From Streptomyces sp. CBMA291 (lineage in GTDB: Bacteria > Actinomycetota > Actinomycetes > Streptomycetales > Streptomycetaceae): DNA of 64,000 bases. The stretch lies in NCBI RefSeq assembly GCF_014596525.1, contig NZ_MSJP01000101.1:1-64000 (forward strand). Direction: 5' to 3'. The translations under genes and the position numbers were made by a program. This document shows, piece by piece, positions 54,583 through 62,893 of the stretch; position 1 is the stretch's first letter, and each line of letters begins with the position of its first letter. The notes under the pieces are model-generated. The model saw nothing but the letters and a program-made list of their open reading frames with translations. It did not search any database and was not told the origin of the DNA.

Positions 54583-55817
54583 CCCGCGACCCGGCACCTC
54601 CGGCGGTCACGCCCGCTTCCTCCGCTTCCTCCTCGTCCTGCCCGCGCCCCCGGCCCTCGGGTCCCGTCCGGTTCGTCGTGCTCGGGGACTCGTTCAGCGA
54701 GGGCGTGGGGGACCGGGTCGACGGGGCGTGGCGGGGGTGGGCTCCGCTGCTCGCGGAAGGCCTGTCCTGTGATCTGTCCGGCGCCCGTTCCGAGGGCTTG
54801 TCCTGTGGTCTGTCCGGCGTCCGCTCCGACGGCCTGTCCGGTGGCCCATCCGGCGGGGTCTCCGCAGGGCCTGCCGACCGGGGGTCTCTAGGGGCCTCCG
54901 GCGGGCCTTGCAAGGGGCTCGGCGGCCCGTCTCCCACAGGGTCTCCCGACCGGCTCGCCGATCGGCGTCCCGCAGGGCCCTCCAAGGGGTGCTCCGGGGT
55001 GCTCGCCGCCGGGGTTCCCGACACTTCCTCCGCAGGGCCCGAAGGGCTGACCACGGGGGCTCTTGGCGCAGCCTCCGGCGAGCCCGCCATCGAAGGGCAC
55101 GGGACGGCCTTTCTCAACCTCGCCGTCAGCGGGGCCCTCAGCGGCGACGTGGCCGCGCTCCAGGCTCCCCGTGCCCTCGCCTTCCGGCCGCACCTCGCGT
55201 CCGTCGTCGTCGGCGTCAACGACACCCTCCGGCAGGGCTTCGACATAGAGACCGTCGCTATCCATCTGAGCCGGGTCTGCGCCGACCTCGCCGCCGCCGG
55301 AGCCGTCCTCCTGACCGCCTGCCTGCCCGATCCCGGCCGGATGCTCGGCCTGCCGCCGCCGCTGGCCCGTCCGCTCGCCCGCCGCCAGGGCTCCGTCAAC
55401 GCCGTCGTCCACGCCCTCACCGCCCGGTACGGAGCCGTCCATCTGCACCTCGCCGACGACACGTGGACCCGGGACCGGGCGCTGTGGAGCGCCGACCGGC
55501 TCCATCCGGGGGAGCGGGGCCACCGGGCCGTCGCCGAGGGCTTCCACCGGCTCCTCGCCGACCGGGGGCTGGCCCACGGCACACCCCCCGCGCGAGAACC
55601 CCTCAAGCCGCCCCCGAGCCGCGCCGAGAACCTGCTCTGGCTCGCCACCGCCGGCACCGGCTGGCTCCTGCGCCGCAGCACCGACCTCCTCCCGCAGCTG
55701 CTACTGCTCGCCGCCGCCGAACTGCGCCACCAGGCGGGCGGCACCGGATCCGGGCCGCTCGACGCGCGCGCCGAAGCCGCCCTCGCCGCCGCCCTCGCGG
55801 CCACAATGGAGGAATGA
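54579..55817 (+). CDS. SGNH/GDSL hydrolase with repeat insertion
   Basis: A 412-residue hydrolase. Block I is [19 protein letters not shown] (nucleophile Ser), block II Gly is in [12 protein letters not shown], block III is [11 protein letters not shown] (Asn), and block V is [13 protein letters not shown] (Asp, His). About 110 Gly/Ser-rich residues, partly made of 12-residue repeats, separate block I from block II, where homologues have a short loop. The N-terminus is a Pro/Ser-rich tail. ATG 54579 overlaps the GT stop. It may de-acylate the product of the adjacent glycosyltransferases. Confidence 0.8.
54756..54863 (+). repeat. 36-bp repeats inside the SGNH gene
   Basis: Three consecutive 36-bp units (54756, 54792, 54828) encode [24 protein letters not shown] and [12 protein letters not shown]. 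The third is diverged. They start the insertion in the hydrolase. Confidence 0.85.
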
Positions 55818-58800
55818 ACGGGCGCTGGGAGTTCTGGATCGACCGGGGCGGCACCTTCACCGACATCGTGGGACGGCGGCCCGACGGGCGGCTCGTCACC
55901 CGCAAGCTGCTCTCCCACGATCCCGCCCGCCGCGCGGACGCCGCCGTCGCCGGAATCCGCCTCCTCCTCGGCCTCGGCCCTGACGACCCCGTCCCCGCCG
56001 ACCGGATCGCGGTCGTCAAGATGGGCACCACCGTCGCCACCAACGCGCTTCTCGAACGGCGCGGCGAACCCACCCTGCTGCTCGTCACCGAGGGCTTCCG
56101 CGACGCCCTGCGCATCGCCTACCAGAACCGGCCCCGCCTCTTCGACCGGCACATCGTGCTGCCCGAGGAGGTCTACGCGCGCGTGATCGAGGCCCCCGAA
56201 CGGGTCGACGCGCACGGCCGAGTCGTCCGGCCCCTCGACGAGACCGCCGTCACCGAGGCGCTCGCCGCCGCCCGCCGCGACGGGCTCCGCTCCGCCGCCG
56301 TCGTCCTCCTGCACGGCTACCGCTACCCGGAGCACGAGGCCAGGACGGCGGAACTCGCCACTGCCGCCGGATTCACCCAGGTCAGCTGTTCGCACGAGGT
56401 CAGTCCACTCATCAAACTGATCCCGCGCGGCGACACCACCGTCGTCGATGCCTACCTCTCCCCGATCCTGCGCCGGTACGTCGACGAGGTCGCCCGTGAA
56501 CTCGCCGGGGTCCGGCTGATGTTCATGCAGTCCAACGGGGGGCTGCGCGAGGCCGCCCACTTCCGGGGCAAGGACGCCGTCCTGTCCGGACCCGCCGGTG
56601 GTGTCGTCGGCATGGCCCGTACCTCGGAAAAGGCGGGACACGACCGGGTCATCGGCTTCGACATGGGCGGCACCTCCACCGACGTGTCGCACTACGCGGG
56701 CACCTTTGAGCGTGAACTCGGTACACAGGTCGCGGGAGTCCGGATGAGGGCGCCGATGATGAGCATCCACACCGTCGCGGCGGGCGGCGGCTCCGTCCTG
56801 CACTTTGACGGACGCCGCTACCGCGTGGGCCCCGATTCGGCCGGTGCCGTCCCCGGACCCGCCTGCTACCGCAGGGGCGGACCGCTCACCATCACCGACG
56901 CCAACGTCATGCTCGGCCGCGTCCAGCCCGCCCACTTCCCCGCCGTGTTCGGCGAGACGGGCGACCGGCCCCTGGACGCCGACGTCGTACGGGAGCGGTT
57001 CACGGCCCTGGCCGAGGAGACGGGCGGGGACCGCACCCCCGAGGAGGTCGCCGCCGGGTTCCTGGAGATCGCCGTCCTCGCCATGGCCAACGCCGTCAAG
57101 AAGATCTCCGTCCAGCGCGGCCACGACGTCACCCGGTACGCCCTCACCAGCTTCGGCGGCGCCGGAGGCCAGCACGCCTGCGCCGTCGCCGACGCGCTGG
57201 GCGTCGACACCGTCCTCGTCCCTCCGCTGGCCGGGGTCCTCTCCGCGTACGGCATCGGGCTCGCCGACGCCACCGCCCTGCGGGAACAGTCCGTCGAGGC
57301 CGAGCTGGACGCGCCCGGCACCCCCGAGCGGATGACGGACCTCTGCCGTGAACTCGCCGACCGGACCCGCGCGGAGCTGCGCGCCGACGGCATTCCGGAC
57401 GAGGCGATCAGCACCCACGCGCGCGTACTCCTGCGGTACGCGGGAACGGACGCGAGCCTCCCCGTCGACCTCGCATCCCCGGAAGAGCTGAAAAGCGAGT
57501 TCACAGCCGTACACCGTGTGCGGTACGCCTTCACCCTGGACCGGCCGCTCGTCGTCGAAGCCGTCACCGTGGAAGCCGTCGGCCGCGCCGGACCCCACGG
57601 CCCCGTCCACACCGGCCCGACCGCCGACCCGGACCGCACCGGGCCGCCCGCCCCCCACACCACCGTCCGTGTGTACAGCGGGGGAGAACTCCGCGAGACC
57701 CCCCTCCACCGGCGCGAGGAGCTGCGCCCCGGCGACACCGTGGACGGGCCCGCGATCCTCGCCGAGGCCGACGCCACCACCGTCGTCGACAGCGGCTGGC
57801 GGGCCACCGTCACCGACACGGGGCACCTCCTCCTGCGCCGCGTCGCCCCCCGCCCCGCGCGCGTGGCGGCCGGTACCGACGTGGACCCCGTCCTCCTGGA
57901 GGTCTTCAACAACCTCTTCACCGCCATCGCCGAGCAGATGGGCGTGCGACTGGAGAACACCGCCCAGTCCGTCAACATCAAGGAACGACTCGACTTCTCC
58001 TGCGCGCTCTTCGACGCCGAGGGGAACCTCATCGCCAACGCGCCCCACATCCCCGTCCACCTCGGCTCCATGGGCGAGTCCATCAAGGAGGTCCTGCGCC
58101 GACGCGGCGACGACCTGCGCCCCGGCGACGTCTACGCGGTCAACGACCCGTACCACGGTGGCACCCACCTGCCCGACGTCACCGTCGTGACCCCGGTCTT
58201 CGACACCACGGGAGACCCGCCAGGCACCCGCCCCCCGCTCCGTTTCGTCGTTGCCTCACGCGGACACCACGCCGAGATCGGCGGCATCACCCCCGGCTCG
58301 ATGCCCGCCTTCAGCCGGACCGTCGACGAGGAAGGCGTCCTCTTCGACAACTGGCTGCTCGTCCGCGACGGACGGCTGCGCGAGGCCGAGACGCGCGCCC
58401 TGCTCACCGGCGCCCCCCACCCCTCCCGCGACCCGGACACCAACATCGCCGACCTGCGCGCCCAGATCGCCGCCAACGAGAAGGGCGTCGAGGAACTGCG
58501 CAGGACCGTCGACGAGTTCGGCCTGGACGTCGTCCAGGCCTATATGCGGCACGTCCGCGCCAACGCCGAGGAGTCCGTCCGCCGGCTCGTCGCCCGCCTC
58601 CACGACGGCTCCTGCCGCTACGAGACCGACGAGGGCGCGGTCATCCACGTCACCGTCCGCGTCGACCGCGAACGGCGCTCCGCCGTCCTCGACTTCACCG
58701 GCACCTCCCCCCAGCTCCCCGGCAACGCCAACGCGCCCACGGCCGTCGTCACCGCCGCCGTCCTGTACGTCTTCCGCACCCTCGTCGACGAGGACATCCC

Positions 58801-62012: not shown

Positions 62013-62182
62013 CGACAAGATGCCTGTTGTCCGGAACCGGACCGTACGGTTGACTCGCCGGGGCACGGACCAGGGCATGGCGCAGGGAACGGACCAGGGC
62101 ACGGGCGGACGGGTCGCTGGCTCCGTGCGAGGCCCCGGCCGACGCGCCGCCGTGGTCGACGACGTACGAGAAGGAGCGCGCC

Positions 62183-62893
62183 GTGGCAGTGAGCGAAGTC
62201 CGGGACCTGGCCGACGACCGGGTCCTGCTCGGCCGGACCAGCACGGCGGAGCGGGTCGCGGACATCCTCCGCACCAGGGTCGCCGAAGGCCGGTTCCCGC
62301 CCGGTACCCGGCTCTCCGAGGACGGCATCGGCGGCGCCCTCGGCGTCTCCCGCAACACCCTGCGCGAGGCCTTCCGGCTCCTCACCCGCGAACGGCTCCT
62401 CGTCCACGAACTGAACCGCGGGGTCTTCGTCCGGGTCCTCGCCGTCGAGGACGTCGACGACATCTACCGCACCCGCCGCCTCGTCGAATGCGCCGTCGTC
62501 CGCGGTCTCGGACAGCCCCCGTACCCGCTCGCCGCCCTCGGCGCCGCCGTCGCTGCGGGCGAGACCGCAGCCCACGCGGGCGCGTGGCAGGACGTCTCCA
62601 CCGCCAACATCCACTTCCACCGCGAACTCGTCGCCCTCGCGGGCAGCGCCCGCACCGACGAGCTGATGCGGGGCGTCCTCGCCGAACTCCGCCTCGCCTT
62701 CCACGTCGTCGGCGACCCGCGCCCGCTCCACGAGCCCTACCTGGCCCGCAACCGGGAGATCCTGGACGCCCTGCGCGCCGGGGAGCGGACCACGGCCGAG
62801 CGGCTCCTCGCCCGCTACCTCGACGACTCCCGCGCCGCCGTCACGGACGCCTACGCACGGGCCGCCGCCGCCCCCGGGAACCACGCGGGCTGA
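62183..62893 (+). CDS. GntR/FadR (FCD) family regulator
   Basis: A 236-residue regulator. An N-terminal winged helix (RVADILRTRVAEGRFPPGTRL; LGVSRNTLREAFRLLTRERLL, 20-85) precedes an FCD ligand domain (about 95-225) with the metal-binding His residues (NIHFHRELVALAGS). AAGGAG lies 7 nt before GTG 62183. It diverges from pxpABC and most likely controls 5-oxoproline use. Confidence 0.9.
   Translation: MAVSEVRDLADDRVLLGRTSTAERVADILRTRVAEGRFPPGTRLSEDGIGGALGVSRNTLREAFRLLTRERLLVHELNRGVFVRVLAVEDVDDIYRTRRLVECAVVRGLGQPPYPLAALGAAVAAGETAAHAGAWQDVSTANIHFHRELVALAGSARTDELMRGVLAELRLAFHVVGDPRPLHEPYLARNREILDALRAGERTTAERLLARYLDDSRAAVTDAYARAAAAPGNHAG

Follow-up and report, generated by a model that had tools for sequence, protein, structure and literature searches.

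A shared chromosomal slot in Streptomyces for two probable, non-homologous 5-oxoprolinases, OPLAH and PxpABC

In Corynebacterium glutamicum, as described in the accessible part of PMC13274462, the pxpTABC operon is repressed by PxpR, a divergently encoded GntR protein that binds 5-oxoproline and acts through the operator agattgttcaacaatct, which lies 65 nt upstream of the first gene of the operon. The same part of that paper places a eukaryotic-type 5-oxoprolinase of Bordetella near 5-oxoproline-binding tripartite ATP-independent periplasmic (TRAP) receptors. The eukaryotic enzyme itself, OPLAH/OXP1, is treated for yeast in PMC13398684, in the accessible portion of which the word 'bacteria' does not occur. 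Here, we describe a locus of Streptomyces sp. CBMA291 in which an OPLAH-type gene stands tail to tail with a complete pxpABC operon; it lies in a stretch of 64,000 nucleotides (positions 1 to 64,000 of the 67.9-kb contig NZ_MSJP01000101.1), hereafter the window. The evidence makes it probable that these are two isofunctional 5-oxoprolinases, a 5-oxoproline-inducible pxpABC and an OPLAH belonging to another operon, which have shared one slot since early in the history of Streptomyces and have been differentially lost.

The OPLAH-type gene (55814..59563, forward strand, ATG start) encodes a single chain of 1249 amino acids in which HyuA and HyuB are fused. PF05378 (Hydant_A_N), PF01968 (Hydantoinase_A) and PF02538 (Hydantoinase_B) are matched in this order at full or near-full length, the architecture of OPLAH-type enzymes, and PF19278 is matched in the C-terminal part; the protein is the sole PF02538 match in the 6.9-Mb host genome. 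Its 3' end overlaps by 17 bp (59547..59563) that of pxpC (59547..60410, reverse strand, 287 amino acids, CT_A_B, PF02626), which is preceded on the same strand by pxpB (60407..61108, 233 amino acids, CT_C_D, PF02682) and pxpA (61105..61932, LamB/YcsF, PF03746, with four solved homologues). The three Pfam families thus follow one another in operon order, with 4-nt overlaps at the pxpA/pxpB (GTGA) and pxpB/pxpC (ATGA) junctions; pxpA may start at GTG 61932 (275 amino acids) or at ATG 61926 (273 amino acids). Divergent from pxpA is a GntR/FCD regulator gene (62183..62893, forward strand, PF00392 and PF07729). This arrangement, including the overlap and the regulator beside pxpA, had been proposed in a first-pass annotation; coordinates and Pfam assignments of all five proteins confirm it, and the recurrence of the convergent pair in relatives argues that it is not a product of chance.

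The pxp half of the locus resembles its C. glutamicum counterpart, as far as the latter is described in the accessible part of PMC13274462. Both possess pxpA, pxpB, pxpC and a divergent GntR gene of similar domain layout, and both have a 17-bp operator; that of the window, GGATTGTTGAACGATCC (61997..62013), differs at 3 positions from the published site and is centred 73 nt upstream of the pxpA GTG and 79 nt upstream of the ATG, as against 65 bp in C. glutamicum. Unlike the C. glutamicum locus, that of the window has no PxpT transporter gene and has instead an OPLAH gene converging on pxpC. When the window was scanned with the published site at up to 3 mismatches, the operator was the one match found, and 100 shuffled sequences yielded none; a Streptomyces operator consensus at up to 1 mismatch occurs once in the 6.9-Mb genome, at the same position. 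With a GntR gene divergent from the pxp operon and this operator between them, the window GntR protein is, by analogy, probably PxpR, a 5-oxoproline-sensing repressor. A refined consensus, which was built from the very loci scanned and is partly circular in that respect, lies beside gntR or pxpA in 55 of 58 gntR-bearing Streptomyces loci; two of the three remaining loci (L155 and L164) have weaker matches to the published site, the third being L143. The published site was also searched for, at up to 4 mismatches, in partly overlapping Streptomyces loci totalling 2.45 Mb: every intergenic match stands beside gntR, pxpA or DUF969, and neither these matches nor the refined consensus occur upstream of OPLAH or of the glycosyltransferase and SGNH hydrolase genes that often precede it. 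We rejected the idea that PxpR also controls OPLAH in the window, since no such operator lies upstream of the gene. The same scan gave 7 further matches inside genes, 5 of them inside OPLAH, and matches with 3 to 4 mismatches also occur inside OPLAH in several Proteobacteria; we read the latter as fortuitous similarity to a coding segment that is conserved.

In the model that we favor, both systems would be ATP-dependent 5-oxoprolinases that convert 5-oxoproline to glutamate, their substrate arising from the spontaneous cyclisation of glutamate and glutamine and from the action of pyroglutamyl peptidases. The pxpABC operon would be the inducible arm, held by a PxpR-type GntR repressor at 61997-62013 that 5-oxoproline releases, by extension of the C. 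glutamicum result. OPLAH would be the other arm, and probably a constitutive repair or recycling enzyme, because it appears to be transcribed with glycosyltransferase/SGNH genes and has no PxpR site. Both would have occupied one slot since early Streptomyces. Because either enzyme would suffice, individual lineages would have lost one or the other, leaving slots with both, with OPLAH only or with pxp only, as well as empty slots where another copy exists elsewhere; we infer that redundancy is the reason for this exchange. In the host genome, a contig other than that of the window gave one weak match to pyroglutamyl peptidase, which scored 25.9 bits (cut-off 22.7) and covered 122 of 204 positions.

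The gene content, operators, synteny, counts and trees on which this model draws were observed directly. Gene maps define a conserved slot bounded on the left by a 'prot42'-type protein (49707..51122 in the window, forward strand), often accompanied by glycosyltransferase/SGNH genes, and on the right by a protein designated 'w50' (62962..63999, forward strand, continuing beyond the window end), for which a Pfam search at E 1e-4 returned no match. Both flanks fall within one fetched locus in 72 genomes, of which 18 have both systems between them, 16 OPLAH only and 38 pxp only. Because OPLAH or pxpA hits were the starting point for fetching loci, empty slots were detectable only through 18 genomes examined separately; in 8 of these the interval between the flanks measures 0.1 to 7.8 kb and contains neither enzyme as scored. 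Taken together, 99 of 101 slots could be scored (19 judged by hand from partial loci; G002 and G079 unscorable), with 23 containing both systems, 19 OPLAH only, 49 pxp only and 8 neither, a negative association (Fisher p = 0.001, uncorrected and ignoring descent). This led us to reject a cooperative locus in which both enzymes are needed, as the slot contents are negatively rather than positively associated. The slot OPLAH proteins are monophyletic, and their clades match by eye those of the flanking genes. On a flank-protein phylogeny of 79 genomes with a midpoint root, the slot OPLAH requires 5 changes and pxp 3, and the state with both systems is spread over separate clades, a distribution consistent with long-standing co-residence and later differential loss. 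The families associated with pxpABC in these slots are pyroglutamyl peptidase, DUF969/DUF979, D-glutamate cyclase and a major facilitator superfamily (MFS) transporter.

Co-occurrence was also assessed across whole genomes. Among 101 genomes of the genus in a first sample, 69 have a fused OPLAH, 93 pxpA, 62 both and 1 neither; OPLAH was called there from PF02538 matches of at least 620 bits, with shorter HyuB-type matches excluded. This bit cut also excluded G053, in which one frame has its match split in two, and G028, a contig-end fragment beside pxpA, and the association tests were rerun with G053, and with both genomes, moved. One OPLAH-positive genome, G005 (L129, 10474-14069), has the gene in two overlapping pieces, its frame apparently broken in the assembly. 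A second sample comprised 147 genomes of the order, 132 of them in the genus and 11 common to the first sample, with OPLAH called at E <= 1e-170, a threshold that split matches may escape; within the genus it gave 82 genomes with OPLAH, 124 with pxpA, 74 with both and 0 with neither. Pooling produced 222 Streptomyces genomes (126 both, 15 OPLAH only, 80 pxpA only, 1 neither). When G079, G050 and G001, which are 78-82% complete, were removed and G053 was restored, the 219 genomes at least 90% complete divided into 127 with both, 14 with OPLAH only, 78 with pxpA only and 0 with neither, and the negative association had a Fisher p of 0.0026, uncorrected and ignoring descent. The genes are not always neighbors: in the first sample pxpA is found only on another contig in 13 of the 69 OPLAH genomes and is absent in 7, and in the second an OPLAH/pxpA pair on one contig is missing from 24 of 72. 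The 97 same-contig pairs include 34 that are convergent within 12 kb, 22 of these with less than 2 kb between the scored domains; a further 47 pairs, all but one divergent (46), are separated by 12-40 kb, and the remaining 16 by greater distances. The genome survey suggested in the first-pass annotation thus finds the pairing in relatives, rather than its absence from all of them.

The OPLAH genes of Streptomyces belong to two lineages. A fully supported branch separates the 39 slot OPLAHs from 29 others, 26 of which lie directly after a DUF742 gene (for example L063, 6219-10875), with a spacing of 24 nt in 19 cases. The operon of this second lineage also encodes a roadblock protein and a nucleotide-binding protein, and we take it to be conservon-like. 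Where it is near pxpABC on one contig, the second-lineage OPLAH lies 17-34 kb away. In a FastTree phylogeny to which 79 named rows were added (L272 excluded), the second lineage clusters not with the slot lineage but with Mycobacterium, Actinopolymorpha and Phytoactinopolyspora; because of this placement, two independent arrivals of OPLAH near pxpABC are likely but not proven.

The strongest competing explanation is that the pairing is mere inherited synteny with no regulatory or metabolic meaning, the contents of the slot drifting neutrally. It accords with the lack of an operator common to both systems, with a 17-bp overlap that is not conserved and with association tests that are not phylogenetically independent; nevertheless, we regard it as unlikely, given that none of the 219 genomes lacks both enzymes and that a second OPLAH lineage, in its putatively conservon-like operon, lies 17-34 kb away in many relatives. 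More tentatively, and with somewhat less than even confidence, we propose a dedicated '5-oxoprolinase slot' of Streptomyces, in which non-homologous enzymes would have been co-resident since early in the genus and would substitute for one another. The retention of at least one of them in practically every genome would reflect constant selection for 5-oxoproline removal, and a second, independently derived OPLAH lineage would have been drawn into a conservon-like operon in the same 35-kb neighborhood; if true, 5-oxoproline recycling would thereby be linked to the signalling module. Under the favored model, the site is a clear natural example of non-orthologous gene displacement, observed at the intermediate stage in which both enzymes are present, and sister lineages show each of the two single-enzyme outcomes at that position. 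Because the slot of related species may contain both enzymes, either one alone or none, it offers a natural test of the replacement of one enzyme by another; within a single genus it makes testable why a cell retains two enzymes for the same repair and whether the removal of 5-oxoproline is, in effect, essential. The enzyme families are known; what is new relative to the literature searched is the shared slot and the exchange. Among the matches listed from the open-licence PubMed Central literature, none described OPLAH paired with pxpABC in Streptomyces, an enzyme exchange of this kind or OPLAH in a conservon.

The second alternative concerns the OPLAH-type protein itself; the first-pass annotation had raised the possibility that one of the two systems has a different substrate. 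The OPLAH-type protein would act on a hydantoin, on a lactam resembling caprolactam or on something made by the glycosyltransferase/SGNH operon, and its adjacency to pxpABC would be incidental. The superfamily does contain hydantoinases, a caprolactamase and carboxylases, the closest solved structure is called an N-methylhydantoinase, and the OPLAH start overlaps the SGNH gene. Residues of the superfamily are retained in the window protein: compared with CapAB, for which the accessible part of PMC8453981 served as the reference for ATP-site and metal-site residues, it keeps D10, D17, K31, D283 and D290 in the ATP half and the Asp-His-Asp-His metal site (D727, H785, D788, H818), as aligned. Positions in this comparison, including E724, were counted by hand in printed alignments. 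These residues are common to the CapAB caprolactamase (PDB 6yra), the N-methylhydantoinase (7hk5) and the window OPLAH. However, CapAB consists of two chains and the window OPLAH of one, E724 takes the place of L38 of the CapB pocket in the alignment, and the window protein scores 339.3 and 157.8 against the CapA and CapB equivalog models, far under their cut-offs of 1000 bits each. The segment N-x-[KR]-E-[RK]-x-DFS is kept in 99 of 100 rows of the OPLAH family and differs in 7hk5 and CapB. The fused HyuA+HyuB architecture is shared with eukaryotic OPLAH/OXP1, the window protein being bacterial, and we take an 11-residue segment and the overall length to match as well. The closest named loci are from Streptomyces, with the S. 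litmocidini protein 90% identical. Two other genomes of the genus share their OPLAH with the records of S. atriruber and S. sulfonofaciens.

Genomic context argues further against another substrate. All 14 of the pxpA-less Streptomyces genomes that are at least 90% complete carry OPLAH, and OPLAH replaces pxpABC in loci marked by PxpR operators and D-glutamate cyclase. In G073 (L135, 5239-12030), OPLAH converges on a D-glutamate cyclase-MFS pair with gntR and the operator, ending 6 bp from the cyclase gene; the slot contains no pxpABC, and pxpA is on another contig. Actinopolymorpha pittospori (L226) has cyclase-MFS, a perfect operator, gntR and OPLAH in that order, and five Burkholderiales loci have cyclase-MFS-OPLAH. 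Of 54 OPLAH loci from outside the Streptomycetaceae, 10 have a D-glutamate cyclase gene within the flank that was fetched, with the MFS gene in 6, and in Aquabacterium a TRAP-like set (recognised by eye), cyclase, OPLAH and a pyroglutamyl peptidase homologue are clustered. Such settings make a different OPLAH substrate improbable, and suggest that bacterial OPLAH genes of the window clade act on 5-oxoproline; from genomic context, the window OPLAH probably catalyzes the ATP-dependent conversion of 5-oxoproline to glutamate. We also rejected a hydantoin or lactam specialisation of the locus, as hydantoinase- and caprolactamase-type assignments all stayed below their cut-offs and 5-oxoproline is what the gene contexts indicate. 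Of the specialised role proposed in the first-pass annotation, the 5-oxoproline part therefore stands, with the PxpR-type operator and the peptidase, DUF969/DUF979, cyclase and MFS genes of the relatives' slots in its favor, and the part concerning hydantoins and other lactams is not supported.

Several observations weigh against the reading of the locus as two isofunctional 5-oxoprolinases. In NCBIfam the window OPLAH falls under the cut-off of every model matched, and no bacterial OPLAH of its clade with measured activity was found in the literature searched. Gene spacing is the sole basis for assigning it to an operon and for its presumed constitutive expression. PxpC is under the cut-off of the PxpC equivalog NF045499 (198.9 against 500), and in place of the GAHP-x-[YF]-PD of the four solved homologues, Streptomyces PxpA carries GAQVSYRD. 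The negative associations of OPLAH and pxp take no account of phylogeny, and an independent-pairs analysis, with only 3 usable pairs, gave no significance. Finally, no operator was found in L143, an OPLAH-only slot that retains gntR. Other subunit scores are mixed: PxpC is over the cut-off of the broader TIGR00724 (256.5 against 230.2), PxpB is just under that of TIGR00370 (136.6 against 145.55), and PxpA is over two subfamily models, including NF003814, and under three equivalogs. The GAQVSYRD segment is present in 62 of 63 slot PxpA proteins, the other having GAQVAYRD, and in 11 of 13 PxpA copies encoded elsewhere.

A division of labor by enantiomer or source, with one enzyme acting mainly on 5-oxo-L-proline and the other on 5-oxo-D-proline from D-glutamate cyclase, is quite improbable. 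The cyclase gene does lie beside pxpABC in many Streptomyces slots and beside OPLAH in Actinopolymorpha and Burkholderiales, but a cyclase that accompanies either enzyme does not discriminate between them, and the window locus has none. An antisense regulation of OPLAH and pxpC by transcription across their overlapping 3' ends, an interplay that the first-pass annotation had raised, is most improbable, since the overlap occurs in only 2 of 12 immediately adjacent OPLAH/pxpC pairs (in the other 10 the genes are separated by 15 to 922 bp) and the single terminator-like match in 59000-63000 is near the shuffle background (1 against a mean of 0.5). The same count led us to reject a conserved antisense overlap. 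The terminator and promoter scan returned no promoter-like site. The overlap in the window stems from a 45-residue C-terminal tail of OPLAH past its Pfam match, and this tail is shorter in G004 and G015, the closest relatives; the pairing is inherited, and the overlap is not conserved.

The pairing of OPLAH and pxp may extend beyond the Streptomycetaceae. Among named loci of that family, the convergent pair is present in 10 of 26, including Actinacidiphila soli. Type strains with the tail-to-tail arrangement include S. litmocidini JCM 4394 (L206) and S. chryseus JCM 4737 (L214). In a sample of 246 genomes of the phylum, OPLAH (E <= 1e-150) was found in 12 and pxpA in 57; six of the OPLAH genomes are outside the genus, none of these has pxpA, and in four of them the protein is only 39-41% identical with a stop within the match. 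In Mycobacterium, OPLAH stands tail to tail with pxpC- and pxpB-like genes at 40-45% identity (L222, 3573-9379). Two Mycobacteriaceae loci, L222 and L238 (9989-16231), have OPLAH near pxpB-/pxpC-like genes at 40-50% identity, and no pxpA match occurs in the fetched stretch.

The remaining genes of the window locus lie upstream of OPLAH. A glycosyltransferase gene (52057..53175, forward strand; NCBIfam glycosyltransferase models matched, all under cut-off) is the first of the probable OPLAH-containing operon. It is followed by a single reading frame for a glycosyltransferase and an SGNH hydrolase (53172..55817, forward strand), with which OPLAH is probably co-transcribed because the stop codon of this frame overlaps the OPLAH start by 4 nt; the same overlap is found in 15 of 18 relatives in which an SGNH gene directly precedes OPLAH. 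Within the fused frame a repetitive linker joins the glycosyltransferase and SGNH parts, and in relatives (for example L071) the two are separate, overlapping genes.

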